A DNA stretch of 64,000 bases from positions 62,001 through 126,000 of the forward strand of contig NZ_JAAKEG010000007.1 in assembly GCF_011039075.1 (NCBI RefSeq), given 5' to 3'. This stretch comes from Adlercreutzia sp. ZJ304 (GTDB taxonomy: Bacteria; Actinomycetota; Coriobacteriia; Coriobacteriales; Eggerthellaceae). Below are positions 1,100 to 43,628 of the stretch, in pieces. The notes below the pieces were generated by a model, which had not been told where the DNA came from, ran no database searches, and saw nothing but the letters and a program-made list of their open reading frames with translations. A program made the translations under genes and the position numbers. How positions within the stretch are numbered: the stretch's first letter is position 1; each line of letters opens with the position of its first letter.

Positions 1100-1927
1100 A
1101 TGGGAAAGATATTTATATTCGACCATGCTAAATGCAATGGTTGTAGAAATTGCCAGATTGCCTGCAAAGACGAGCATGTAGACAACGACTGGTCGCCTTA
1201 TGCAAAGCCACAACCTGATACGGGTCAGTTTTGGACAAGAATTAACGAGACTGTCTGTGGTCAGGTTCCTAAAGTTAAGGTGTCTTACACGCTAGAGACA
1301 TGCATGCATTGCGACAACGCCCCTTGCATTGCGGCTGCACCAGATGCCGTATATAAGCGCGAAGATGGTCTAGTGATTATTGATCCAGAAAAGTCAAAGG
1401 GTAAGGCAGAAATTGTAGACAGCTGTCCTTACGGCGCTATCTTCTGGAATGAAGAGCTTGATATTCCTCAGAAATGTAGCGGATGCGCACATCTTGTAGA
1501 TGCTGGCGAAGTTCCACACTGTGTGGATGTATGCCCGCATGAGGCAATTCGTTTTGGCGATGAAGAAGATTTCGCTGACGAAATTCTTGCTAGTACATTG
1601 TTGTATCCAGAAAGAGAAGACGACAAACCAAGGGTTTACTATCTCAACCTTCCCAAGCGCTTCCTTGCCGGTGTTGTTGTTGACCCAGAAGCCGATGAAG
1701 TAATTATCGGCGCAAAGGTGACAGCAGAAAACGTAGACACCAACGAAGTCTTTGTTCAAAAGACAGACGACTTTGGTGATTTCTGGTTTACGCAAGTTGA
1801 GAAATCGAACTGGCGCGTTTATGTAGAAAGCGAAGGTTATCTTACGCGCGTAATAGAAGCCAGCACTGTTGAAGAAGACAGGAATGTTGGACCTGTATTT
1901 CTATACAAGTCTGACCTAGCTCAGTAA
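1100..1927 (+). CDS. Ferredoxin-like [4Fe-4S] subunit of transhydroxylase-type Mo enzyme, with C-terminal transthyretin-like domain
   Basis: 275 residues, 2 bases after the Mo subunit, so the two are cotranscribed. The N-terminal 150 residues carry exactly 12 cluster-type cysteines: C12, C15, C18, C22; C68, C71, C76; C109; C126, C129, C141, C145. This suits three [4Fe-4S] clusters. The fourth position of the second motif is alanine (A80) and most cysteines of the usual third motif are missing, a pattern known for the transhydroxylase small subunit rather than four-cluster DmsB/NrfC proteins. Residues from about 187 onward form a carboxypeptidase-regulatory or transthyretin-like beta domain (GVVVDPEADEVIIGAKVTAE), also a mark of that family. 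It should pass electrons to or from the Mo centre. No signal peptide is visible. Confidence 0.9.
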   Translation: MGKIFIFDHAKCNGCRNCQIACKDEHVDNDWSPYAKPQPDTGQFWTRINETVCGQVPKVKVSYTLETCMHCDNAPCIAAAPDAVYKREDGLVIIDPEKSKGKAEIVDSCPYGAIFWNEELDIPQKCSGCAHLVDAGEVPHCVDVCPHEAIRFGDEEDFADEILASTLLYPEREDDKPRVYYLNLPKRFLAGVVVDPEADEVIIGAKVTAENVDTNEVFVQKTDDFGDFWFTQVEKSNWRVYVESEGYLTRVIEASTVEEDRNVGPVFLYKSDLAQ

Positions 1928-1944
1928 TTAACAAACCCAATTTT

Positions 1945-1982
1945 GAACTGTCACTTCTTAAGTTTTCTCGAAGTGACAGTTC
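1945..1982. other. Perfect 13-bp inverted repeat between the Fe-S subunit gene and the transporter gene
   Basis: GAACTGTCACTTC (1945-1957) and GAAGTGACAGTTC (1970-1982) are exact complements separated by 12 bases. No T-run follows, so this is not a typical intrinsic terminator. It lies 30 bases before the transporter start. It could be an mRNA-processing or stabilising hairpin that sets subunit/transporter ratios, or an operator. Confidence 0.75.
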
Positions 1983-2011
1983 ATACCAAATCTCATATCT
2001 AAGGAGGAGAG

Positions 2012-3433
2012 ATGAGTTCAGAGACATTACAAAAAACGTTCTCTGTTAAAGGCGTGGTTGGTATAGTTTTATCAATTATTGTGCTGCTTATTGCAGGTTT
2101 TGTTCCCCCTACCGAGGCACTTTCACACCAAGGCGCACTAGGGCTGGGCATTATGGCGACAGCCGTTATATTGTGGATTTGCGAAACATTCCCCGCCGGC
2201 GTTACGGGTATATTGGTGCTCGTATTGGCTTCACTTCTTGGTGTAGTCCCCTTAAAAGAAGTATTTTCCGGATTCGGAATGACAACCATCTTCTTCGTTA
2301 TTGGTGTTTTTAGTCTGACTATCCTAATGATGAAGACAAGTCTAGGACAGCACCTCACCAGAAAACTAATTGAGTGGGCTGGCTCTAACTCTAACAAACT
2401 TGTTTTAGCTTTTATGATTGGATCAGCTGTTATCTCAACAGTAATGACCGATACAGGCGCTGTTGTTATAACTATGGGTCTTGCCCTTCCGCTTCTTAAG
2501 GCGCTTGGACATGAGCCCGGAAAATCTAATCTCGGAAAATGCCTTATGCTAGGTGTGGCTTTCGCAGCCATTATGGGCGGCTTTTGCACTCCAGCTGGGC
2601 ACTCTATGAATGTTTTATCAATGGGCATGCTGCAAGCATATAACGGAATGAGCATAGGCTTTTTGCAGTGGATGGCTATCGGTATTCCATTCGCGATTAT
2701 CCTTATCCCTATCTGCTGGTTCTTCCTTACACGGATTCTTAAACCTGAGCAGATGACCGATAGCGATATTGAAGCAGTATTGGCAAGCACAAGCGATTTG
2801 GGCAAATTTAGCACAATGGACAAAAAAGCATTAGTTATGCTTATCGGCATTCCTGTGCTTTGGATTCTTGGTAATTGGATTCCCGTGCTAGACACCACCA
2901 CTGTTGCTGTAATCGGTCTTGCTGTTATGTTCCTTCCGGGCGTAAACCTACTTACCTGGGAAGATGTTCAGAAAGGCGTTCCGTGGAATATAGTGCTTAT
3001 GCTTGGTGGAATTTTATGCTTGGGCAACATTCTTGGAGCCACCGGTGGCGCGAAGTTTATCGCTGATCTCTTCTTGTCGAGTGGCGTTCTTGCCATGGAT
3101 CCGCTGGTTGCGCTTTACATCATTGCAGTTGTGGTTTACCTGCTTCACACTTTCCTTCCAGTGGCACCTGCTATTTTGACGATATTCCTACCGCCACTGT
3201 TCGCATTTGCCACAGCGGCTGGAATTTCCCCAGCTATTCCGATGCTTATTGTAGTAGCAATTGTATCCGGCAACTTCATCTTGCCGCTTAACCCAACAAT
3301 TACTGTTGCATATGCAGAAGGCTACTTCACATTTGGCGATACAGCACGCGCAGGAATAATCCCCGCTATTCTTTTCGTAGTAATTATTGTTCCTCTTGTT
3401 TACTTCATCGGAGGCGCTATATTACCTGTATAG
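2012..3433 (+). CDS. DASS/SLC13-type anion transporter
   Basis: 473 residues, strongly hydrophobic, with about 11-13 predicted membrane segments. It shows the two hairpin/substrate regions typical of divalent anion:sodium symporters: a TDTGAVVITMGLALPL stretch around residue 150 and GNFILPLNPTITVAYAEG near residue 425, where this family normally has its Ser-Asn-Thr-like sodium motifs. The start is fixed by a strong AAGGAGGAG ribosome site 6 bases ahead. It lies 84 bases after the Fe-S subunit gene and is probably cotranscribed through the 1945-1982 hairpin. Family members move di- and tricarboxylates or sulfate. In this setting it may import an anionic, possibly aromatic, substrate for the Mo enzyme (inference). 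Confidence 0.88.
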   Translation: MSSETLQKTFSVKGVVGIVLSIIVLLIAGFVPPTEALSHQGALGLGIMATAVILWICETFPAGVTGILVLVLASLLGVVPLKEVFSGFGMTTIFFVIGVFSLTILMMKTSLGQHLTRKLIEWAGSNSNKLVLAFMIGSAVISTVMTDTGAVVITMGLALPLLKALGHEPGKSNLGKCLMLGVAFAAIMGGFCTPAGHSMNVLSMGMLQAYNGMSIGFLQWMAIGIPFAIILIPICWFFLTRILKPEQMTDSDIEAVLASTSDLGKFSTMDKKALVMLIGIPVLWILGNWIPVLDTTTVAVIGLAVMFLPGVNLLTWEDVQKGVPWNIVLMLGGILCLGNILGATGGAKFIADLFLSSGVLAMDPLVALYIIAVVVYLLHTFLPVAPAILTIFLPPLFAFATAAGISPAIPMLIVVAIVSGNFILPLNPTITVAYAEGYFTFGDTARAGIIPAILFVVIIVPLVYFIGGAILPV

Positions 3434-3455
3434 AACCATATTGCAACGCATAACA

Positions 3456-3497
3456 ATCAAGCAGGCTGAAGCATTTGCTTTGGTCTGCTTGATTTTT
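3456..3497 (+). terminator. Intrinsic terminator after the transporter gene
   Basis: ATCAAGCAG (3456-3464) pairs with CTGCTTGAT (3485-3493) and runs into five T residues. It sits 22 bases after the transporter stop codon and closes the Mo-enzyme/transporter transcript before the convergent gene. Confidence 0.8.
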
Positions 3498-3503
3498 GCA
3501 GGG

Positions 3504-4697
3504 TTATTTTTGATGCTGGCTGCGATGGATCATCTGAAAAGCAATAACGCACACCACAGCAGCTATAACAGCAATAGCAGAAACAATTAAAACAGTAACA
3601 GGTAGTCCATCTCCTGTCTGCGACAAGGTTTGCGCTTCAACTAAACCAGTCTTGTAGGCATCAATCATACCTTGCGCTTGGTCTTTATTTACCGGATGAG
3701 CAAGCATTTCATCAGTTATTTCCAATTCTCCTCGGTCAATATCCGATCCGATGAAGTCGTCGCCGGGAAGCAAGTTTTCTATCTCGTCTTTATTAAATTC
3801 CTGATCTGGAAGACCCGGAGAAGGCGGATTCGGTGAATCATCAGGAACAACTACATTGTCTGGAATTTCTACATTATCGGGAAGATATTCAGATTCTGGA
3901 GTATAAAGCACGTTTATCACGTTATTGTCAGGATCTGTTCCCAGTCTAATTTGCGCCGGGTACGTGTCTATAACATAAGCACCGTCTATCATATATTCAT
4001 AAGCATCACCATCAATAAGCGCGTCAAAACGCTGCCCAGTAAATGTTTCAGAACCTATTTTGTAAAACTTGACATTTCCAGATGCCAGCGCACCTGCCCA
4101 AGTGTCCGCGCTAAGGTCTGCCCCCGTCATCAAATAGTAGTTAACTGTGTATTCGCTATTCCATAGTTTTACATAGATAAGGTCCATAACGTTTTCTTCG
4201 GGATTAGAAGTTATTGTCAAATTCAGCGGCCACCCATCAAAGAAGAAGTGTCCCGGTATATCAACCACATAATCCCATGCATGCAAAACGTCTCCCACTT
4301 TAAGATTTTCTACAACATACTTCCCAAGTATTCGCCTACCGTTTTCATCCAAAATTGCATCTGGGTCTTCATATGTTGCATTTTCTAAATAATTTATAGT
4401 TGCGCTTGTAGTGGCTTCTTGTTCTGCTGCGCTTTCTTCAGTACTGTTTGGAAGCGTGGCACTATCTTGGAGATGGGCGTCTTCTTGAAGTTGGGCATCG
4501 CTTTTAATCTGGGTGCCTTCTTGAAGTTGAGAAAGTGTATTTTGCGGATTCTGTATATCTTCTGCCGAAGCAGATCTGGGTTCTGCGGTCATTAGCAAAA
4601 AGACAAACACAACAACAGTCGCTGCCAGAGAAAGCAACAATGCAAAATAAACGTTCTTTAATGCAGGTTTTTGCCCGCGAGACTCTTGCCAACCCAT
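3504..4697 (-). CDS. Secreted wall-anchored protein with MucBP-like repeats and a degenerate sortase signal
   Basis: About 397 residues. A lysine-containing N-terminus and hydrophobic stretch (LLLSLAATVVVFVFLLM) form a signal sequence, followed by a low-complexity Ser/Thr/Gln/Glu region. Two beta-rich segments follow, each ending in a NVI/NVM-x-LIYVK or NVINVLYTP strand, resembling MucBP-type repeats. A Pro/Asp-rich spacer and a C-terminal TQLSQ-like tail lead to LSQTGDG, a hydrophobic helix and a basic tail. LSQTG looks like LPxTG with Ser for Pro, so sortase anchoring is plausible but unproven. Start: the frame is open to 4718, but the ATG at 4697 has GGAAGG 9 bases ahead, so it is preferred. 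It converges with the transporter gene. The ligand is unknown. Confidence 0.72.
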   Translation of the reverse strand: MGWQESRGQKPALKNVYFALLLSLAATVVVFVFLLMTAEPRSASAEDIQNPQNTLSQLQEGTQIKSDAQLQEDAHLQDSATLPNSTEESAAEQEATTSATINYLENATYEDPDAILDENGRRILGKYVVENLKVGDVLHAWDYVVDIPGHFFFDGWPLNLTITSNPEENVMDLIYVKLWNSEYTVNYYLMTGADLSADTWAGALASGNVKFYKIGSETFTGQRFDALIDGDAYEYMIDGAYVIDTYPAQIRLGTDPDNNVINVLYTPESEYLPDNVEIPDNVVVPDDSPNPPSPGLPDQEFNKDEIENLLPGDDFIGSDIDRGELEITDEMLAHPVNKDQAQGMIDAYKTGLVEAQTLSQTGDGLPVTVLIVSAIAVIAAVVCVIAFQMIHRSQHQK

Positions 4698-4872
4698 GAT
4701 AATCAGCCTTCCAATCATCCTAGACTGAATAGAATCACATTACTTGGCGCAAATCGTAGCAACTCCATCTGTGCTTGCGCATGGTGGGCAAAAACTGTGA
4801 AACTATCATCTCCAGAATGTTGTCAAACTGTTTGCTCAGACTGACAGCATTGCGCAGGTATAACTTCTCCCT

Positions 4873-4905
4873 GTTCAACTATTCAGCATCGCTAAATAGT
4901 TGAAC
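4873..4905. repeat. 11-bp perfect inverted repeat in a 428-bp gene-free region (4698-5125)
   Basis: GTTCAACTATT (4873-4883) and AATAGTTGAAC (4895-4905) are exact complements with an 11-base spacer. They lie between the surface-protein gene and the methyltransferase gene, which are divergent, so the repeat is well placed as a regulator site. The remaining 220 bases before the methyltransferase hold a short AGCC/GGCT hairpin but no leader RNA or riboswitch that I recognise. Confidence 0.6.
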
Positions 4906-5125
4906 ACATTAAAGATAAGACCAAAGCGAATCATTGAAAACCGCTGCGCCCTGTCCTAGAATGTAGCCACTGTAAAACCAAATCCTTTAAGGGGTTGTCT
5001 TTTTGGTCATTGTTCTGTAGAGAACGCTTAACCGAATAGGTGTTTCAAACGAGAGCCGTCAGGCTTTGTGGTTGGTGTTCGCATAATTCGACTTCATCCG
5101 TCCTACACTACAGAAAGAGACAACA

Positions 5126-5848
5126 ATGAACCAATTTCCTAAATCAGAAACTTTCCCTTTAAATACTGTCCAATCTAAGATTATGGGTCCCAATCCTCTG
5201 AAGCTTTGCGAGGAACTTCTCCACGAACATGAAATTCCGAAAAATGCCGTGGTGTTAGACTTAGGGTCAGGAACCGGCATTACCTCGTGCATGTTAGCCC
5301 GCGAATATGGGTTTATCACCTACGCCGTAGACTTGTGGAGCGACCCCGGCGAAAACATGCGCTTCTTCGAAGAAATGGGGCTGTCTAACCGGCAAATCTG
5401 CCCCATCAAAGCCGATGCCACACAGGGACTACCCTTCGCCACAGAGTTTTTTGACGCAGTTATAAGCATAGACTCTTACAACTACTTTGGACGCGATTCC
5501 GCGTACCTTGGCGAGAAGCTGCTCCCGCACGTTAAGCACGGCGGACTGCTGTACTTCGCCATTCCCGGCATGGTGAAAGATTGCCACGACAACCTGCCTT
5601 GCGAATTGCTACTTAGTTGGACACCTGAACAACTAGAGTACATGCACGACATGGATTGGTGGCGCACCATGATCGAACCCACTTGTGGCGTACATATCGA
5701 AAGCATAAGTTCTCTGAGCTGCCATGACGAGGCATGGGCAGATTGGCTTACTTGCGAAAACGAGTATGCCGCCGGCGACCGCGCCTCAATGGAAGCTGGA
5801 GCTGGAAAGCTGCTGAACAGCATCGGTATCGTATTGAGAAAGCTATAG
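5126..5848 (+). CDS. Class I SAM-dependent methyltransferase
   Basis: 240 residues. The Rossmann motif I VVLDLGSGTGIT sits near residue 45, followed by an acidic loop (YAVDLW) and a KADATQGLPF segment that matches motif II, as in UbiE/Coq5-type enzymes. No membrane segment. The substrate cannot be named; a small molecule is more likely than rRNA because there is no RNA-binding domain. Only a weak ribosome site (GAAAGAG) precedes the ATG. It is monocistronic, with a long untranslated leader and a convergent FetAB pair downstream. Confidence 0.85.
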   Translation: MNQFPKSETFPLNTVQSKIMGPNPLKLCEELLHEHEIPKNAVVLDLGSGTGITSCMLAREYGFITYAVDLWSDPGENMRFFEEMGLSNRQICPIKADATQGLPFATEFFDAVISIDSYNYFGRDSAYLGEKLLPHVKHGGLLYFAIPGMVKDCHDNLPCELLLSWTPEQLEYMHDMDWWRTMIEPTCGVHIESISSLSCHDEAWADWLTCENEYAAGDRASMEAGAGKLLNSIGIVLRKL

Positions 5849-5849
5849 A

Positions 5850-5884
5850 AAAAATCAGGCAGCTGGCGCACCTGTCGCCAGCTG
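5850..5884 (-). terminator. Intrinsic terminator of the fetAB-like operon
   Basis: CAGCTGGCG and CGCCAGCTG (5860-5868 and 5876-5884) form a 9-bp stem with a 7-base loop. Read on the minus strand it is followed by a T-rich run at 5850-5855, so it mainly ends the leftward fetAB-like transcript. Confidence 0.65.
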
Positions 5885-5967
5885 TCGTCTTCACCTAACA
5901 CAGCATATTTCTAGCCAATACGTTAATTTGCGCAAAGCCGTTAAGCACCACAGCCCAGCGGCAATGG

Positions 5968-6765
5968 TTATTCGTTGCGCAATGCAGGAGAAAGAAAACA
6001 CCCATCCGATGTGAAGCGTTTGCGATAGGCGGTAAAGCAAATTGCAACGATAGCCAAAGTTGTGGCAGCAGAAACCATCAGCAAAACGACTATTTGATAC
6101 TTTGCTGCAATCATAGGATCGGCACCAGCAAGCACCTGCCCGGACATCATGCCGGGAATTTGAACAATGCCTGAAGCCGACATGGTAGCAAGAGCAGGAG
6201 TAAGACCCGACGCTATCGCCGCCCGAATCGAAGGGAACGCCGCCTCCCTTCGTGTGGAACCGAGCGCCAGATACGCCATAATCTCGTCAGAGCGCGCGTC
6301 CATATCCGAGAAGAGCCTGTCAATCGCCACAGCAGTCGCGCTCAAAGTGTTGCCGAGCACCATGCCTGATATCGGCACAAGCACGCGCGCATCATACCAA
6401 GGCGAAGCATGAACAATAGCCTCAACAACTATTAATGCCACAATCATTGATGATAAGAAGATAGAGCCGAACACTTCGGGCCAAATATTAAGCGCCTTAC
6501 CCTTTATGCGCCCCAAGGCAATCTGCGTAGCAGCAAGTGACATTCCTATAAGCACAAGGCAGACGAGCCACCACGACTGGTATTTAAACAGGTAGACAAG
6601 AAGCAGCCCCATTGCCAACAGTTGCAAGAAACAGCGAACAGTCGCTATAACGATAGCCTTAGTCTGCCTAAGCCTGAGTGCCCACGCAACAACAGCTGCC
6701 ACAAGCATAAATGCCGCAGCTCCAAAAAGTTCCGGATATCCTATATCAATAACGCCTGCGTCCAT
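5968..6765 (-). CDS. fetB: FetB/YbbM-type ABC transporter permease
   Basis: 265 residues. The frame is open far upstream, but the ATG at 6765 lies one base after the stop of the ATPase gene and gives the usual FetB length (about 260). Multi-helix membrane protein with the family block RxxFPSIRAAIASGLTPALATMSA and IVQIPGMMSGQVLAGADP, the signature region of the YbbM/FetB family. With FetA it forms an exporter linked in E. coli to iron homeostasis and resistance to oxidative stress. That function is carried over by homology. Confidence 0.85.
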   Translation of the reverse strand: MDAGVIDIGYPELFGAAAFMLVAAVVAWALRLRQTKAIVIATVRCFLQLLAMGLLLVYLFKYQSWWLVCLVLIGMSLAATQIALGRIKGKALNIWPEVFGSIFLSSMIVALIVVEAIVHASPWYDARVLVPISGMVLGNTLSATAVAIDRLFSDMDARSDEIMAYLALGSTRREAAFPSIRAAIASGLTPALATMSASGIVQIPGMMSGQVLAGADPMIAAKYQIVVLLMVSAATTLAIVAICFTAYRKRFTSDGCFLSPALRNE

Positions 6766-6766
6766 T

Positions 6767-7450
6767 CTATATCCTTGCTTCCGCACATTCGAGCTGAAAG
6801 ATCTTGCCATTTTCCAGCCTAAACATTTTGTCTGCCACACCATCAGGAGGTCTATGACGAATACGCAAGCAAGCCGTATTGTTACCAATAAGCTTGCGCG
6901 TAAGATTGGAAACCGATCTTGCCGAATCGTTATCAAGCGCGGCTTCCACTTCGTCAAGCAAAAAGACATCCGGCTTAGTTGCAAAAGCGCGAAGAAGTGC
7001 GACCCTAGCAAGCTCGCCACCTGATAGCTGAGCAGCATCTCGATCAAGACTGACATCGCCAAGGGATGCTTCATCCATAAGCGAACAGAGAGTCTTGTCG
7101 TTTGGTGGATTATCGTTTCGGCGGACTCGAAAACTCCATGGCAACAAGAGGTTGTCGCGCACAGTACCAGCAATGACAGTGGGTTTCTGCGGCACGTAGC
7201 AGATGAGCCTTCGCCATTCTTCTGCCGAAAACGAACTCGAATCGACCCCTTTTAGCGCAAGGGTGCCGATAGCTTCGGGAAGAAGACGCGCGCAAGCGCA
7301 GAGCAGACTCGACTTACCAGATCCTGAAGGGCCCACAAGATCTACAATCTGCCCCTCTAAAAGTTCGAAACTAATATCGTCAAAAGGCTTAAATGAAATG
7401 CCGTTTCGCCTATAGGATACCGTTAGCCCTCTTGCCTCGAACAGCGCCAC
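6767..7450 (-). CDS. fetA: FetA/YbbL-type ABC transporter ATP-binding protein
   Basis: 227 residues. Walker A is GPSGSGKSS near residue 40, the ABC signature is LSGGE near residue 143, and Walker B is DVFLLDEVEAALD near residue 163. GTG start at 7450 with a GAGGTAGG ribosome site 5 bases ahead. It is one base from fetB, and the pair form a minimal two-gene ABC system of the FetAB type. No regulator gene is adjacent. Confidence 0.85.
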   Translation of the reverse strand: MALFEARGLTVSYRRNGISFKPFDDISFELLEGQIVDLVGPSGSGKSSLLCACARLLPEAIGTLALKGVDSSSFSAEEWRRLICYVPQKPTVIAGTVRDNLLLPWSFRVRRNDNPPNDKTLCSLMDEASLGDVSLDRDAAQLSGGELARVALLRAFATKPDVFLLDEVEAALDNDSARSVSNLTRKLIGNNTACLRIRHRPPDGVADKMFRLENGKIFQLECAEARI

Positions 7451-7720
7451 TTGAGCCTACCTCTACACGTACCTTATATGTCATATGTCGGGATGGTTGG
7501 GGGTTATGCGCTTTCCCCGTCTTTTTGTGCGCGAAATAATAGTAAACGACATTCAACAGCGCAACAAGCGCGTATTGCCAACACATCGCCCGACAACCCA
7601 TCAATTCCACGATGACCCCGATTTCTGTAAACAAAAATGCCACATAGCGTATATGTGGTTGTCTTTATGTCATACTTTTACACAAGGGATAGAAAGGTGG
7701 GCGACGCGAGAAGAGGCTGC

Positions 7721-8401
7721 ATGCGGGCAAAGAGAAAATGGCTGAAGGTGTTGGGAATCGCATGTACAGCGGTCGTAATTGTTGTGGCTGCGGCGGCACT
7801 CGCTATCGATGCTCACGTGCGCACTTCCACAGAAAGTCGCATCATCTCATCTAACGAAGCTGCACGTATGGACAATATCGATTGCGTATTGGTGCTCGGC
7901 TGTGGTGTCAACGCTGACGGTTCTCCCAGCGATATGCTCGCCGATCGGCTGAAACAGGGAATTTCCCTTTATGGACACAATGTAGCACCAAAAATACTGA
8001 TGAGCGGCGACCACGGAAGCCAAGACTACAACGAAGTGGGCACCATGAAAGCAATTGCCATTAATGCAGGCATTCCCTCCAAGGATGTTTTTATGGATCA
8101 TGCAGGCTTTTCCACTTACGAGAGCATGTATAGAGCACGCGATATCTTCCAAGCTAAGCGCATAATTGTGGTATCGCAGAGCTACCATCTTTTCCGTGCG
8201 CTGTATGTTGCAGAGAAGCTAGGGCTCGATGCGTATGGTGTGGCATCCGATTTGCGCCCTTATGCGGGTCAGATGATGCGCGATGTCCGTGAAGTGCTCG
8301 CCCGAAACAAGGATTTCGTCACCGCTATTGTGCGTCCTGCACCTACTTTCCAAGGCAGCAGCATCCCACTTACAGGCAGCGGCGACGAAACGAACGACTA
8401 G
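7721..8401 (+). CDS. Membrane-anchored SanA/YdcF-like (DUF218) protein
   Basis: 226 residues from the ATG at 7721, chosen because AGAAGAGG precedes it and it puts the basic RAKRKW stretch just ahead of a single hydrophobic anchor (VLGIACTAVVIVVAAAALAI). The frame is also open to 7637. The extracytoplasmic domain carries the DUF218 hallmarks: VLVLGCGVNADGSPS, GDHGSQDYNE, and VVSQSYHLFRAL with the conserved His and Arg. SanA in enterobacteria affects envelope permeability and vancomycin tolerance. Related YdcF/ElyC proteins act in envelope biogenesis. The exact reaction is unknown. Confidence 0.8.
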   Translation: MRAKRKWLKVLGIACTAVVIVVAAAALAIDAHVRTSTESRIISSNEAARMDNIDCVLVLGCGVNADGSPSDMLADRLKQGISLYGHNVAPKILMSGDHGSQDYNEVGTMKAIAINAGIPSKDVFMDHAGFSTYESMYRARDIFQAKRIIVVSQSYHLFRALYVAEKLGLDAYGVASDLRPYAGQMMRDVREVLARNKDFVTAIVRPAPTFQGSSIPLTGSGDETND

Positions 8402-8470
8402 CGCCCGATGCTCCAACTTCTACCTTGGTCTTCGCTTGCCATTCCGATCGCCTCCTTGAGGCAATTGTGA

Positions 8471-8491
8471 ACCTTAACGCAGCGTAAAGGT
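8471..8491. promoter_or_regulatory. Orphan MerR-type operator palindrome
   Basis: ACCTTAACG-CAG-CGTAAAGGT is a 21-bp palindrome with one mismatched pair, the shape of sites bound by MerR-family activators between a -35 and -10 box. It lies in the gap between two convergent genes with no MerR gene nearby. A 7-codon open frame (8502-8525) starts just downstream on the plus strand, possibly what remains of the gene it served. Confidence 0.4.
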
Positions 8492-8535
8492 CAAGCAGCA
8501 TGCGCGAAACAGCGCATCAATAGGATAAGTAATCT

Positions 8536-9168
8536 TTAAAAGTAATCTTCAAAATTACCGTCGAAAACTACGTCGGTGCCGGGTATCACGGAAGTCCGCT
8601 CGTCTGCGGGCGCGTGCAGCACCATAAGCAAACCGCGACATAACACACCAAGTCTCTCGGCAACCTCTTCATCGGTGAATTTAACTACCTCACTCGCACA
8701 CATCGCGGCGATTCCGTGCACGTAAATCAACATATTCTCGTAAAGCCACATAGCTTGATCGCGATCGATATGGAAGGTGTTCATCACAGCACCGAGAACG
8801 TCCTCAAGATGTCCTGCATGCTCTAGAAATTCATTGATGCTTGCCTGCTCCGATTTGCGCATTAAAAGCAAGCGGAAAAGGCTCGGCTCCTCTACGGCGA
8901 AGCGAACGCATGCCATCCCAAACCCCTTGAACGCCGGCGTAAGCGCAAGCCCTTGCGCAACCCGTTCGTCGTATATCTGCCATGCCGCATCCGTTGCCGC
9001 AGTTCGAAGGTCCTCTACCGTGTCGAAATAGGTGAATATCGGGCGCGTGGACGTGCCTAGCTGCTTAGCCATAGCTTGTGCAGTAATAGCCTCAACGCCT
9101 TCGTCGCGGATGATATCGAGGGCGGTTTCAACTATCTGCTCTTTCGTGAACTTCGCCTTCGGTGGCAT
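8536..9168 (-). CDS. TetR-family transcriptional regulator
   Basis: 210 residues from the ATG at 9168, which has an ideal AAGGAGG site 5 bases ahead. The frame extends to 9450, but that part overlaps the ABC permease. Residues 8-55 form the TetR helix-turn-helix (IVETALDIIRDEGVEAIT... LGTSTRPIFTYFDTVEDL). The C-terminal ligand domain has YENMLIYVHGIAAM, close to the TetR_C_8-like group. It follows the ABC exporter genes by 56 bases on the same strand and is probably part of that operon, making it a candidate autoregulator of the exporter. Confidence 0.87.
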   Translation of the reverse strand: MPPKAKFTKEQIVETALDIIRDEGVEAITAQAMAKQLGTSTRPIFTYFDTVEDLRTAATDAAWQIYDERVAQGLALTPAFKGFGMACVRFAVEEPSLFRLLLMRKSEQASINEFLEHAGHLEDVLGAVMNTFHIDRDQAMWLYENMLIYVHGIAAMCASEVVKFTDEEVAERLGVLCRGLLMVLHAPADERTSVIPGTDVVFDGNFEDYF

Positions 9169-31219: not shown

Positions 31220-31327
31220 GCTGACAGCTAATGAAGTCAATCTGAAAACTTGATACCTAAGAATCAAGGGGACCGGATGTGCGACCAGTTGGACTACCGG
31301 CTCCCGGTTTCGAATATACTTTTAACA

Positions 31328-31399
31328 TTAAGTTATAACGACATATCTTGCAATTTTCAAAATATCATGTTATATTCCTATTGTCGTTAAGTTATAACG
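31328..31399 (+). promoter_or_regulatory. Promoter bracketed by two 13-bp direct repeats
   Basis: TTGCAA (31348-31353) and TATATT (31371-31376) are 17 bases apart. The sequence TTAAGTTATAACG occurs exactly at 31328-31340 and 31387-31399, on either side of the promoter and 59 bases apart. Each contains the palindrome GTTATAAC. The arrangement suggests repression, perhaps with looping, by the HTH protein encoded next. Confidence 0.7.
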
Positions 31400-31415
31400 T
31401 CAATTAGGAGATAAC

Positions 31416-32258
31416 ATGAAGCTCGAAGATGTAAGTATGCAGGAATTGATCGATCAGCCTCTCTTTTGGGAAGACTTCGATTTGGATCGTAAAAACAAGG
31501 AAAGCGTAAAAGCATTCATTGAGCGCGACCCTAAGGCAGTAGAGAAAATTCGTTTCCTTGACCAAGTCGAGGATGGCAATCTTCTTGATAGAAATACCTT
31601 CTTCAAATTAGATTTTTACGAGGTTGAGTTCACCGAATACGCCCGTCTTTTCCTTGCTGAAGGAGAATACCCCTCGGATGACAGCAACAGCATCACTGAC
31701 GTGGACTATCCGAGGGACTACAGCAATATCAGATTGCTTATACAAGATGTTACAGGGCCTTATCCAACAGATGGACAAGGAATGTTCGCAATCTATCTAA
31801 AAGATTACTTGTTTGGATTCATAACCCCAGTTGGTATGTGTGTCTACCCCTACAACTTCGATGAAGACTCTTGGGAACAATATAAAAACGATCCAGCGAA
31901 CTTCATTAAAGAACATGTGCTGCTAGAATTAGAGACACAGTTTTGGGAAGATGACTTCGATCTCAAACAGGAGCTCTACGATTACTACCACAATCTGCCG
32001 GATGTGCATAACCCATTGCTTGAAAAGCAAACCGACTTAGACCGGCTCATCTCTGTAAAAGAAACCTCGGAAATTCTAGGAGTAAGCGTTCCTAGGGTAA
32101 TGAAGATGATTAAGGAGAAATCCATCGACGGCTACAGGTTTGGTGGGAAATTATTGGTTACCAAATCATCCATCGACAATCGTATCGAATACATCAAAGA
32201 GCACGGTAAGCCAAAACGCGGCAAGGCGCCCGAAGGTAAGCGTAAAAAGAAAAAGTAA
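31416..32258 (+). CDS. Protein with C-terminal excisionase-like helix-turn-helix and basic tail
   Basis: 280 residues, first of three genes. Residues 1-205 are acidic and of no family that I recognise (VEFTEYARLFLAEGEYPSDD, YPTDGQGMFAIYLKDYLFGF). Residues 208-255 form a MerR/excisionase-type HTH (LISVKETSEILGVSVPRVMK), and the end is strongly basic (KPKRGKAPEGKRKKKK). TAGGAG precedes the ATG. It probably binds the repeats at 31328 and 31387 to control the unit. It could be a sensor-regulator or an antitoxin-like partner of the HNH protein (inference). Confidence 0.8.
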   Translation: MKLEDVSMQELIDQPLFWEDFDLDRKNKESVKAFIERDPKAVEKIRFLDQVEDGNLLDRNTFFKLDFYEVEFTEYARLFLAEGEYPSDDSNSITDVDYPRDYSNIRLLIQDVTGPYPTDGQGMFAIYLKDYLFGFITPVGMCVYPYNFDEDSWEQYKNDPANFIKEHVLLELETQFWEDDFDLKQELYDYYHNLPDVHNPLLEKQTDLDRLISVKETSEILGVSVPRVMKMIKEKSIDGYRFGGKLLVTKSSIDNRIEYIKEHGKPKRGKAPEGKRKKKK

Positions 32259-32294
32259 CTATTACGGTATTTGTCAACTAACAAGGAGAAAGAA

Positions 32295-33293
32295 ATGCCT
32301 GTATTTAAGATGCCTGTCCCGGTAAAGATCATGGGAAGAAGCTCAAGTATCACAAATTCGTTCGTAAACGGAATTATCCCTTGCATTGAGCCAACTGAAA
32401 ATGAGATAGACGAAGCGCTTTCCGTTCTAGGAATGAATCGAGAAACTGCTTGTTGTGCTTATTGCGGTTCACCCCACACAGAATGGGATCACCTAAATCC
32501 AATTGTTGATGATAAACAACCAACTGGCTACATTAGCGAGATTCACAATCTTGTGCCTGCTTGCAGTAAATGCAACCAATCAAAAGGCAATAAAGATTGG
32601 AAAACATGGATCTATAGCGATGCACAACTATCTCCAAAATCTAAAGGAACACCCGATTTAGATGAAAGAGTTTCTCGCTTGAAAGAATACGAAGCCACAT
32701 TTGAGCCGCGAAAGTTCAATTTCGAGGAAATTACTGGAGTGGAGCTTTGGTCAAAGCATTGGGACAATTACGAACGAATTATTGATGCAATGCGATTAGC
32801 TCAATCAACATCAGACGAAATCAAAAAACTAATTATGGAAAATGTCGGGATCAGTGTGCAACGCAAACCAAAACAGCCGAACTATGTTCGAGCTGGCAAT
32901 ACAAACAATCAGAATGAATCTTTTCCCTCAAATACTGAGGACGAAGCATTACTTGAAGAGTCAGGAATTGCTAAAAGAGATAATGAAACACTGCAACACT
33001 ATGTTCAAAGATCGTTTTGCTTTCTCATGAAAAACAGTTATATCCCAGACCGAGAGCTCAGAGATTTGTCGGATAAGGAATATACCAATAGGGTCCTAGG
33101 CCTAAACGACAGGTTTTTGTCTCGCGAGAGATGGTTCGATAGCTCAGGTAATTCAAGAGCTTGGAAAGACCCATATCATGGCTACTATCTTTGCTCCGAA
33201 TGGAATAAAAGACGTTTTCATATTATTGAGCCGAAGTATCGACATTGGGTTGCGCAAATGATACGAACAGGAAAGATGACCAATCGTGCCTAA
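32295..33293 (+). CDS. HNH endonuclease-like protein
   Basis: 332 residues from the ATG at 32295, 6 bases after AAGGAG. An HNH motif with zinc knuckles: CAYCGSPHTEWDHLNP (near residues 60-75), HNLVPACSKCNQSKGNKDW (near 95-115). The C-terminal part (LQHYVQRSFCFLMKN, ELRDLSDKEYTNRVLGL, GYYLCSEWN) resembles the helical tail seen on several restriction-like proteins. No methyltransferase gene is adjacent, so classical restriction-modification is unlikely. Comes 36 bases after the HTH gene and overlaps the third gene by 8 bases. A phage-defence nuclease is a reasonable hypothesis. Confidence 0.85.
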   Translation: MPVFKMPVPVKIMGRSSSITNSFVNGIIPCIEPTENEIDEALSVLGMNRETACCAYCGSPHTEWDHLNPIVDDKQPTGYISEIHNLVPACSKCNQSKGNKDWKTWIYSDAQLSPKSKGTPDLDERVSRLKEYEATFEPRKFNFEEITGVELWSKHWDNYERIIDAMRLAQSTSDEIKKLIMENVGISVQRKPKQPNYVRAGNTNNQNESFPSNTEDEALLEESGIAKRDNETLQHYVQRSFCFLMKNSYIPDRELRDLSDKEYTNRVLGLNDRFLSRERWFDSSGNSRAWKDPYHGYYLCSEWNKRRFHIIEPKYRHWVAQMIRTGKMTNRA

Positions 33294-33636
33294 AGCTAGA
33301 AACAAGGTCATTGCCGGAGCTTACAAAGGAAAGATAGTAAGCAGCGCAGGGATGACGCCTTACATAATCCTAAAGCTGACGAAGACCTTGAACCTAGATA
33401 AAACCAATGTGAGCCATCTTGAGCTGATAGATGAATCATCTGACATCAGCGTTGCTAGCGCCGCCACACGCGGCTTTATCGGAGAAATGCTGCTCGGGCC
33501 AATCGAATTAGTTACAGCAGGAACAGCGAAGCGCGACGAGAGATATATTGTCGATGCTGTATTCAAAGATGGGCAGAGAAGCGTGTTGGAGATCGATGGC
33601 GATTTATACAGGTTGCTTGCAGTAACCAACTTATAA
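33286..33636 (+). CDS. Small conserved-type protein in the HNH operon
   Basis: 116 residues with a GTG start inside the end of the HNH gene, so it is translationally coupled. The sequence is beta-rich (KVIAGAYKGKIVSS, GFIGEMLLGPIELVTAGTAK, VDAVFKDGQRSVLEIDGD). It resembles small Gram-positive domains with a GxxxG-rich hydrophobic centre often found in membrane-associated or signalling proteins. I do not recognise a named family. The neighbours suggest a role with the HNH protein, such as an inhibitor or sensor. Confidence 0.7.
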   Translation: MPKARNKVIAGAYKGKIVSSAGMTPYIILKLTKTLNLDKTNVSHLELIDESSDISVASAATRGFIGEMLLGPIELVTAGTAKRDERYIVDAVFKDGQRSVLEIDGDLYRLLAVTNL

Positions 33637-33699: not shown

Positions 33700-34188
33700 T
33701 TAGCAGAAGAATATTTCTGCTTCCCAAGACTCTGGGTAGGCCTCGAAAACCGTCTTGATTGCGTCATTCATGACAACGCCAAGCATCTTGCACATATAGT
33801 ACAAGTCTGCACGCTCTTCGATACCATCAAGAGCCTGCTTTACACCGGCGAATAAGTACATCGCATCGCCTAAACCATCCTGCAAGGTCAAAACCTCTTC
33901 TTTATTCATTTCTCCTCTCATGGCAAATAGAATACGGGAGAAATAGCGACATCTACTCCCAGTGACCGCCATCTCCCAATGACCTTCCGCGGGATGGTTC
34001 ACGGTGTTATACCCAGTGATAACCTGTTGTACTTCACTGTGGTGTCCAGAGCCCTTACCTGCAAGCATATGCGCTTTGCTGTGCGCTGTAACATTACCAG
34101 TGATATCGGCACCGCAGACATTACAGATCGAAACCTCTTTGGTGGCGTAGATTGGAACGCTCTCCGTCCATGCAGCCTTGTCTTGCAC
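33700..34188 (-). pseudogene. Chimeric frame: surface-protein zinc-finger tail joined to an unknown end
   Basis: 162 codons from a GTG. Codons 1-75 (ICNVCGADITGN, HMLAGKGSGHHSE) match the C2H2-like end domains of Coriobacteria surface proteins, which should finish with a CxxC knuckle but here break at GSRCRYFS. Codons 90-162 (MNKEEVLTLQDGLGDAMYLF) are a different, possibly real, small protein of unknown function starting at about 33921. It lies in the same frame as the relaxase remnant upstream, separated by one TAG. Confidence 0.4.
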
Positions 34189-34964: not shown

Positions 34965-36179
34965 CTAGATCGCCCAAACGGGAACTGCCTCAACATTCGG
35001 AGTGAGCAGATAGGGCTCTTGCGCTTGGCAGACAATGTGTCCGAACCCTATCTCGTAATCTGCCATGCCCTCGAGACAGGAAAAGTTCTTGGCTGCGTCC
35101 TTCTTTACCAGCGCGCCCATCTTGATCTCTACGGGGTGAAGCACGCGACCGTCCTGGATGACCAGATCGATCTCCCTCTTCTTGGCATCGCGGTAGAACC
35201 AGACGTCGCGCATGTTCGCGCCTGCATTCATATGGCTTTTCAGAACTTCCGACACAACGAAGGTCTCGAAGACGTGACCGGCCACAGCGCCGTTGCGCAG
35301 CTGGTCAGGGGTGGTCCAGCGGGTGAGATGGCAAACAAGACCGGTGTCTATGAAGAATATCTTCGGGGTCTTGGTCAGCCATTTGTCGACATTGGGAAAG
35401 AAGGGCTCTATGACGCAAACGATTCCAGAAGCTTGGAGAACGGAGAGCCATGCTTTGGCGGTCTTGTGGTCGATGTCGAGAGCGTTCGCTATATCCGACG
35501 CGTTGAACAGCTGGGCGGTGCGCGCCGCGCATGCCGCCATGAAGCTGTAGAACTTAGTCTCGTCCTTGACGTTGATTAGCTCGCGGACGTCTCTTTCGAG
35601 GTATGACCTCACGTAGTCGGTCCAGAAGCCGTCCCACTCGATCGAGGGGTCCTGCAGTTCGGGCATCGATCCTCTGTGAATGTGAGTCCAGAGGTCGAAG
35701 GCGTCGGGCGCGTCGATATCGCCCGTGCAAACCTTCTTAGGGAGGTACCTGTGTGGCGCATCGACGCAGCCGACCAGCTCGCGCAGAGAGAGGGCGGGCA
35801 TCTCGAGGATTCTGATACGGCCCGCAAGCGACTCGCTTACGCCGTTCATAAGCTGGTAGGTCTGCGAGCCCGTGAGAACGATAAGCCCCTTCTGATCGGA
35901 TCGGTCCACGATCAATTTGACCGAGAGAAACAGTCCGGGCACGCGCTGGACCTCGTCGATGATGAGGGGCATGGATCGCATGTCGAAGAACAATGCGGCA
36001 TCTTCCTCCGCTTGCATGCGAAGGAAGGGGTCGTCCATGGTCACATAGTCGAACCTGTCGCCCAGATGCTCTTTAAGCACGGTGGTTTTTCCGACCTGTC
36101 TTGCTCCTGTGACCAGTACGACCTTTCCCTGGGTGAGCATGCGGTCGATGGTTTTCTCGATCTCTCTGGCTATGTACAT
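34965..36179 (-). CDS. AAA-family ATPase with DUF4143
   Basis: 404 residues. Walker A GARQVGKTT near residue 26, Walker B MPLIIDEVQRVPG near 75, sensor LTGSQTYQLMNGVSE near 105, and DUF4143 with YLERDVRELINVKD and EIDLVIQDG. GAAAGGGGTC precedes the ATG. It is more intact and from a different subgroup than the paralogue at 14366 (residues outside the motifs differ greatly). It lies just outside the proposed guaA island. Function not established for the family. Confidence 0.9.
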   Translation of the reverse strand: MYIAREIEKTIDRMLTQGKVVLVTGARQVGKTTVLKEHLGDRFDYVTMDDPFLRMQAEEDAALFFDMRSMPLIIDEVQRVPGLFLSVKLIVDRSDQKGLIVLTGSQTYQLMNGVSESLAGRIRILEMPALSLRELVGCVDAPHRYLPKKVCTGDIDAPDAFDLWTHIHRGSMPELQDPSIEWDGFWTDYVRSYLERDVRELINVKDETKFYSFMAACAARTAQLFNASDIANALDIDHKTAKAWLSVLQASGIVCVIEPFFPNVDKWLTKTPKIFFIDTGLVCHLTRWTTPDQLRNGAVAGHVFETFVVSEVLKSHMNAGANMRDVWFYRDAKKREIDLVIQDGRVLHPVEIKMGALVKKDAAKNFSCLEGMADYEIGFGHIVCQAQEPYLLTPNVEAVPVWAI

Positions 36180-42153: not shown

Positions 42154-42996
42154 CTAAGAGTTCAAGGCTTCATTGCAAAGGCTGCGGATGGCATCGAGCG
42201 CATCTTCCCACGAGAGCCCCGCCGCGAAGTCGTTCCTGTTCCGGTATCTTTCCCAATGTCCGGCCATGTCCTCGCTTGCCGCCAGGGCATCGACGACGGA
42301 CTCGGAGTCCGCGAGTGTGACGTCATGGCCCCTCGTCTTCGCGGTTGCCGCGACAGCTTCCGCCAAGATGGCGTAATCAATGTCGGCTTCCATATTGGTC
42401 AGCGCCCACATGTCGTAGAAGTCCCTCATGCGCGTGTTGAGCGTGGAGCGTACGAACATGGTCTCGATCTTCTCCGCAAGCACGGTTTCAACATTGTAGG
42501 CGAGGATGTCGATATCGCGATCCTTAAGCATGAGGCGATACGTGTAGTTGATGGCGGATGGTGTGAGCGCATCCCCTGTGGAGATGTCGAGCTTCATCGG
42601 GATATCCATCTTGCCGAGATGGGCGCGAATCTTGATCCGGACACCACCGTATTCCGATTCCTCCATGATCTCGTAGGCGTCTTCAATATCGAAAGTCATG
42701 CCATCTTCTAAAGGGATAACTGCAATATCTTTCGCCATCTTTACGGCACTCTCGACGTCAAGCGTCATGTTCAGCATAGTCACATCGGTATCGCGCGTCA
42801 TCCGTTGTCCAAGGTCGAGCATCGAAGTAACGAGCATGCCGCCCTTGAGAACGAGGTTGTTCTTGTACTCAGATTCGACCATGCGCTCAAGGTAACGCTC
42901 CATTGCATAGCGACGTTGCAAAAGCTGAGCCTTACCGCTATCGCCATTAGAGAGGCTCTTGATGAGGTCTTTCACCTTTGTCGGATTGTCGATCAC
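42154..42996 (-). CDS. abiEii: AbiEii nucleotidyltransferase toxin
   Basis: 280 residues from a GTG at 42996 that overlaps the AbiEi stop by 4 bases; an ATG at 43020 would add 8 residues. Polymerase-beta-like nucleotidyltransferase motifs: LVLKGGMLVTSMLDLGQ with the Gly-Gly turn and TRDTDV with the paired Asp, then a later DISTGDALTPS acid. AbiEii is a GTP-binding toxin that blocks growth after phage infection in type IV-like toxin-antitoxin systems. The second gene of the abiE operon. Confidence 0.9.
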   Translation of the reverse strand: MIDNPTKVKDLIKSLSNGDSGKAQLLQRRYAMERYLERMVESEYKNNLVLKGGMLVTSMLDLGQRMTRDTDVTMLNMTLDVESAVKMAKDIAVIPLEDGMTFDIEDAYEIMEESEYGGVRIKIRAHLGKMDIPMKLDISTGDALTPSAINYTYRLMLKDRDIDILAYNVETVLAEKIETMFVRSTLNTRMRDFYDMWALTNMEADIDYAILAEAVAATAKTRGHDVTLADSESVVDALAASEDMAGHWERYRNRNDFAAGLSWEDALDAIRSLCNEALNS

Positions 42997-43595
42997 AGAA
43001 GCACCCCCATTGCGTCCCAAATACGCGATTCCATGTTCATTGTCCGCGCGTACTCCGACAAGCGCGCGAGGTTCTTATCTTTGGAGGCAGCGTAAGTCTT
43101 CAGCGCATAATTGAATTCGGTTATGTCAATGCTGTCCTTCTTGCGGATCAAGTCACAGATGGTGCGCTCCTTGTCATAAGCTTTGACGAGGTTCCCGTAC
43201 GGCGTCTTCGCGTCACAGACCCCTAATCCATACCACTCAGGCTTCACGTAATGGATATGCACCCCTTGGTCTCTTAGAGAGGGAGAATTGTAACCAGAAC
43301 CGACGCTGACGGATAGCGGAATAGGTTCGCGCTCGCTCATTTCATGTAGGAACAGCGCAGTGTCGTGCGAGAAGATGGCCTTCGGAAATCGAGTTTGCAG
43401 CAACGCGAACTCATCGGGAAGGGCATTGTCGGATAAGTAGAGTCCACGCCCATGCTTTTCGAGCCCTTTTTCCTTCACGTAGCGATAGAAGGCATCCTTC
43501 GGGATTCCTGCCGCAGACGCTTCAGAGAAGGTAAGCCGCCCCTCATTGCTATCGAGAATCTCGTTTAGCCTATGTGAGTAATAATCGAATATCAT
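42993..43595 (-). CDS. abiEi: AbiEi antitoxin/autorepressor
   Basis: 200 residues from the ATG at 43595; the frame opens at 43613. N-terminal winged helix (LTFSEASAAGIPKDAFYRYV) and the AbiEi-type C-terminal antitoxin domain (LPDEFALLQTRFPKAIFSHD, VVGNLVKAYDKERTICDLIR-like). AbiEi proteins neutralise AbiEii and bind inverted repeats to shut off their own promoter. Such a repeat covers the start of this gene. No ribosome site is visible before the ATG, so translation may be leaderless or use a very short leader. Confidence 0.87.
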   Translation of the reverse strand: MIFDYYSHRLNEILDSNEGRLTFSEASAAGIPKDAFYRYVKEKGLEKHGRGLYLSDNALPDEFALLQTRFPKAIFSHDTALFLHEMSEREPIPLSVSVGSGYNSPSLRDQGVHIHYVKPEWYGLGVCDAKTPYGNLVKAYDKERTICDLIRKKDSIDITEFNYALKTYAASKDKNLARLSEYARTMNMESRIWDAMGVLL

Positions 43596-43628
43596 ACTGA
43601 TAGTATAGTACATACTCAGTATGATATT
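43588..43628 (-). promoter_or_regulatory. AbiE operator: 13-bp perfect inverted repeat over the abiEi start
   Basis: AATATCATACTGA (43588-43600) and TCAGTATGATATT (43616-43628) are exact complements 15 bases apart. The abiEi ATG lies in the left arm. TATACT between the arms, read leftward, can serve as -10. It matches the known AbiEi mode of negative autoregulation. Confidence 0.75.

Follow-up and report, generated by a model that had tools for sequence, protein, structure and literature searches.

A mobile cassette with a putative autorepressor, an exchangeable middle gene and a possible role in phage defence in Adlercreutzia sp. ZJ304

Behind one promoter in Adlercreutzia sp. ZJ304, an operon of three genes encodes a helix-turn-helix protein (HTH), an HNH nuclease and a small protein (SP), and on balance we regard it as a mobile, autorepressed cassette with an exchangeable effector that most likely serves in the anti-phage defence of gut bacteria. 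The genes lie on the forward strand of a 64,000-nucleotide stretch of contig NZ_JAAKEG010000007.1, which we call the window and to which coordinates refer unless a locus is named. The first encodes the putative autorepressor (31416-32258; 280 aa, made up of an N-terminal domain of ~200 aa of a new family, an HTH_17 domain and a basic tail), the second the exchangeable effector, an HNH core followed by a C-terminal domain (32295-33293; 332 aa), and the third, from a GTG start, the constant SP (33286-33636; 116 aa). As the original prediction held, the trio is intact and tightly spaced: all three frames are open in the ORF analysis of the window, 36 bp separate HTH from HNH, and the HNH and SP reading frames overlap. 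The accompanying proposal that the genes are under selection was borne out by comparison with a related locus in another genus (L167), in which non-synonymous changes are far rarer than synonymous ones for both HTH (0.23 versus 0.91 differences per site) and SP (0.27 versus 0.80). Synonymous sites are saturated in this comparison, so the figures say only that HTH and SP are strongly constrained, in support of purifying selection on both.

The trio as a whole is not what is conserved. In a search of 140 genomes of the family, HTH and the third gene recur together, and the HNH gene is swapped. The N-terminal part of HTH was found in six copies in five of these genomes, making the cassette rare, with one further copy on a viral contig (L214), and every copy has a closely spaced second gene behind it. 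One genome, G418, carries two cassettes. Identity to the window HTH is 65% at L167, 52% at L046, 33-34% at L047, L172 and L173, and 32% for the phage copy at L214. In sub-group A, HTH is followed by the HNH nuclease in the window, by an unrelated 124-aa protein at L167 and by a helical protein of ~118 aa at L046, with SP in third place each time (65% and 50% identical to the window SP at L167 and L046, respectively). In sub-group B, L047 and L172 have a DUF6998 protein of ~300 aa followed by a protein of 63-66 aa that ends in a hydrophobic segment, and L173 carries a 107-aa ORF plus a 235-aa protein whose HNH_2 match is below threshold, with a short protein like that of L047 and L172 after them. 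On the phage contig, HTH and a 124-aa helical protein related to the L046 middle protein are found between terminase and portal genes. Among the bacterial copies, each sub-group keeps to one kind of small third gene.

The comparison of copies shows the putative regulator and the third gene as a fixed frame within which the middle gene is exchanged, so that one control unit would serve many effectors. The middle genes of L167 and L046 have no recognised toxic or nuclease domain, and we infer the same for L214 from its similarity to L046. Some HNH proteins (L067, E 5e-24) have a C-terminal part that corresponds to the helical protein of L046, which ties the alternative middle genes to HNH proteins. 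We found no description of this gene combination in the literature.

Control of the cassette appears to lie in its own promoter. A consensus scan predicted an extended promoter (TTGCAA-17-TATATT with an extended TG, 31348-31376, forward strand), and, as originally predicted, it is bracketed by exact copies of the 13-mer TTAAGTTATAACG, at 31328-31340 and 31387-31399; there are no others in the whole 1,998,085-base (~2.0 Mb) genome. The distal copy, within the putative operator ATTAAGTTATAACGAC (31327-31342, forward strand; conserved in L167), sits just upstream of the -35 hexamer. The proximal copy belongs to a near-perfect 25-bp palindrome, the putative operator ATTGTCGTTAAGTTATAACGTCAAT (31378-31402, forward strand), covering the predicted transcription start. 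L167 preserves the two repeats as well as the promoter hexamers and the distance between them, while the intervening bases differ. Among the homologues the repeat sequence varies and the layout is retained in most, with TCTTGAwTATCAA at -92 and -32 at L046, TTGCrTCGCAACA at -73 and -30 at L214, the inverted pair TTGCCCGATAACA and TGTTATCGGGTAA at -72 and -29 at L172, a weaker inverted pair at L047 and an unconvincing pair at L173. We compared these pairs with 500 dinucleotide shuffles each, restricted to a 13-mer pair whose proximal copy begins 20-40 bases before the start codon; shuffles as good as the observed pair numbered 0 for the window, L167 and L046, 1 for L172, 4 for L214, 22 for L047 and 72 for L173, p-values that are only indicative because the layout was picked after the data had been seen.

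Regulator and putative operator co-diverge in these computations, and the simplest reading would be that every regulator has specific sites of its own at the promoter of its own operon, as in an autorepressed module like that of RptR. Autorepression by the HTH protein, which the original prediction had suggested, is highly probable, given that a second genus retains the operator pair and the promoter and that most distant homologues have a pair of their own in the same layout. The closest published analogue of such control is E. coli RptR, a repressor that acts on repeated palindromes of its own promoter to silence a restriction/defence island and that heads different modules (PMC12255303). 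Both place a repressor, a putative one in the cassette, ahead of an operon, with repeated palindromes in its promoter. RptR is a 79-aa protein with a 6-bp minimal site that mostly controls Type I restriction-modification (PMC12255303), whereas the cassette has a 280-aa protein with HTH_17 and a large extra domain, sites of ~13 bp that bracket the promoter, and exchangeable effectors. WYL-domain repressors, a family that co-localises with varied defence genes (PMC9122601), differ from the cassette regulator, which has no WYL domain match and another fold and operators.

Two further features may mark the edges of the cassette. A hairpin, GGGGACCGGATGTGCGACCAGTTGGACTACCGGCTCCC (31266-31306, forward strand), travels with it, being found in 2 of the 140 family genomes, from different genera, as a single copy just upstream of the cassette each time. 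It had no match as a tRNA or Rfam RNA; its predicted fold (-17.4 kcal/mol) is no better than that of shuffles in the window, and that of the relative is stronger (-24.8, z -3.0). The hairpin is possibly an insulating terminator or the cassette edge. Neither this operator pair nor the hairpin was present in the viral contigs scanned. On the other side, a convergent gene for a small protein, D (33700-33906, reverse strand), is possibly the right edge; L167 has a homologue in the equivalent position (35%, E 2e-11), and a family search with protein D gave no match.

The HTH and basic C-terminal tail originally noted in the first protein are both present, the HTH as a match to HTH_17 (PF12728, E 5e-8, aa 212-257, above the Pfam gathering score). 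The description needs amending in that the HTH is only the C-terminal quarter of the protein and follows the ~200-residue N-terminal domain, for which there was no match in Pfam, PADLOC, NCBIfam or the PDB. In a PDB search the matches of the protein were weak and confined to the HTH region, the best having E 5e-4 over 25 residues; a structure model of the protein reached pLDDT 57. No PADLOC or NCBIfam system matched HTH or SP as a whole, and none of the three proteins gave a full-length match to a component of a PADLOC-listed system. The regulator family is without a database description, as are several of the middle genes.

HicB-like proteins accompanied by hicA-like small ORFs (L021, L019 and L226) are widespread in the family and share the nearest relatives of the window's HTH domain. 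HicAB resembles the cassette in its closely similar HTH domain and in forming small autoregulated modules. HTH itself was rejected as a HicB, as hhalign gave a probability of 0.2% for its N-terminal domain against HicB-like proteins and the ORF list has no hicA-like ORF beside the HTH gene. The broader alternative is a toxin-antitoxin-like module in which HTH would be antitoxin and repressor at once, its N-terminal domain neutralising whichever effector is its neighbour, as in promiscuous antitoxin networks. An autorepressed regulator gene in first place with palindromic sites, swapped effectors, carriage on mobile elements and the resemblance of the family's similar small HTH proteins to HicB antitoxins beside hicA-like genes would all suit such a module. 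We nevertheless judge it rather improbable: that profile comparison sets the N-terminal domain apart from HicB-like proteins, one domain would need to bind structurally unrelated partners, and several middle genes are without a toxin-like domain.

The preferred reading, a mobile cassette for defence, draws on where the copies are found. The trio sits in a variable stretch that begins directly after guaA; in a congener the neighbours on the other side of guaA are in synteny, and similarity ends at the guaA stop. The original prediction placed the genes in a zone of dead mobile elements, and remnants are there: a broken IS3 transposase at 29.7-30.6 kb and 34.6 kb, fragments of TQ-domain surface proteins, and a split integrase at 39.9-40.8 kb. 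The zone is not all dead, as it holds intact AbiEi/AbiEii genes (42154-43613, reverse strand; E 3e-63 and 7e-91) downstream of guaA, an HI1420-type toxin-antitoxin pair, and a gene for a DUF4143 AAA ATPase that scores as the candidate defence protein PDC-S01 (34965-36179, reverse strand; E 7.5e-101). With several intact defence-type genes amid the debris, this is an eroded island, not mere debris. Other copies also lie in defence islands or phage DNA; the L173 cassette (1623-8994 of that locus) adjoins Gabija (GajA/GajB) and Shedu (SduA) genes.

SP belongs to the phage family phrog_20920 (E 3e-26), has a further relative at L048 (42% identity), and has relatives on 35 viral contigs. There, with neighbours named by reading their sequences, it is often flanked by a repressor-like gene and an integrase or lies next to lysis genes, and is sometimes in the tail region, positions typical of morons. 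A structure model built from 32 sequences (pLDDT 73) shows mostly beta structure, a helix at the C-terminus and a Gly-rich insert that is modelled unreliably. PH domains were among the best structure matches, none of them significant, and the PDB gave no matches for SP; the model would be compatible with a PH-like domain with a Gly-rich hydrophobic insert, which we consider possible.

The cassette could instead be a moron of a prophage or integrative element with a non-defence task, for instance regulation of the element by an excisionase-like HTH, or host fitness. HTH_17 has the excisionase-family fold, PHROGs name excisionases, relatives lie in phage regions, and integrase remnants are nearby. 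The integrase is split and 8 kb away, though, a 280-aa protein with a ~200-aa extra domain and operators at its own promoter is ill-suited to the role of a small Xis, for which we rejected HTH, and AbiE, Gabija and Shedu are among the neighbours; we therefore find this alternative improbable.

The middle gene of the window encodes an HNH domain (PF01844, E 5e-7, aa 54-100, above the Pfam gathering score). C54, C57, D65, H66, N85, C90, C93, N94 and K97 are invariant or nearly so among relatives, and the window copy retains its catalytic and zinc-site residues. As a single query the protein retrieved nothing related from the genome and viral collections; an alignment query retrieved relatives. 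Its core (aa 1-183; about 183-186 aa) defines a conserved family with relatives at 171 loci of the genome collection, and the 80 relatives kept, from Clostridia to Gammaproteobacteria, are 52-65% identical. The core usually stands alone as a gene of 184-200 codons and in some cases carries a C-terminal extension. Viral contigs gave only 2 matches covering most of the core. Matches were confined to the HNH motif (~50 aa) in both the PDB and PADLOC, and Pfam gave none outside the motif, with no modified-base sensing domain detected.

For ORFs at 18-48 kb, the Pfam families listed, the best 25 of 38, include no methyltransferase, and both N6_N4 methylase matches in the genome fall on other contigs. 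This agrees with the earlier description of an HNH protein without a methylase; the adjacent methyltransferase of a Type II restriction-modification system was not seen. HNH Type IV and stand-alone restriction nucleases are similar in having an HNH fold without a methylase and defence-gene neighbours in some genomes, but Pfam detected no sensor domain in the window HNH. Terminase-adjacent phage HNH endonucleases are similar in that the core scores against PHROG HNH families, but there is no terminase beside the window HNH and the core family is rare in viral contigs.

In other bacteria the HNH core has no fixed neighbours. Genes beside it include those for DUF2357/PD-(D/E)XK, NERD, ZacA/B, pAgo-model and HEC-06-like proteins, and the nearest relative with a C-terminal extension (L049, in family genome G289) adjoins HEC-06-like and Type I restriction genes. 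In the neighbour tally, defence genes are found 5.5-8 kb from the core as well as next to it. Since both sets contain defence genes, we claim residence in islands and no specific enrichment. A GMP-synthase gene is a close neighbour of the core at three listed loci, as in the window. In Collinsella and Enorma (L051, L052, L133 and L139), a solitary core gene immediately follows guaA, at the hotspot that holds the island of the window. On two Hymenobacter plasmids (L058 and L059, each 7959-8630) a core relative is embedded in an operon for heavy-metal efflux, and on a viral contig (L140, 1-5040) the core gene has lysis-type genes on one side and, 3.4 kb off, a C5-methylase-like gene on the other.

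HTH and the third gene recur with other middle genes and the core is rare in viral contigs, so the HNH gene is not always a solitary phage or intron enzyme with unrelated genes around it. That it is a free-standing homing endonuclease inserted by chance between HTH and SP is very unlikely: the core does occur mostly on its own, in many phyla without fixed partners, and even in metal-resistance operons, but other middle genes occupy the identical place, the HNH and SP frames overlap, the C-terminal extension recurs on a restriction-like protein (L011, HSDR_N-like, PD-(D/E)XK), viral copies are few, and no intron or intein was seen.

We thus return to an autorepressed defence cassette with an exchangeable effector. 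HTH would bind the two operator copies that bracket the promoter and cover the start site, and would silence the operon. The N-terminal domain would sense a signal, in all likelihood either infection by a phage or the induction of a resident element, and repression would be lifted; the derepressed HNH protein would then attack DNA, which we infer to be that of invaders, and SP would have an accessory role, perhaps at the membrane. Against this reading weigh the rarity of the cassette, the lack of a PADLOC or NCBIfam match for HTH and SP as wholes, the middle genes of L167, L046 and L214 without a recognised toxic or nuclease domain, and the unconvincing pair at L173. The proposed role in phage defence is reasonably probable, being plausible from the island context, the phage location of relatives and the nuclease itself, even though the neighbour tally shows no specific enrichment. 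More speculatively, and with considerable doubt on our part, the N-terminal domain could be a new kind of sensor of infection, acting as a plug-in controller. The frame pair would take unrelated effectors and operator specificity would shift with the regulator, such that several cassettes, as maybe in G418, could coexist without cross-talk.

The regulation of defence genes in bacteria is poorly known. If the repressor and operators keep their layout and the effector is swapped, new effectors could be found by following the regulator, and the cassette would offer a simple test of how costly nucleases without a methylase are kept safe.
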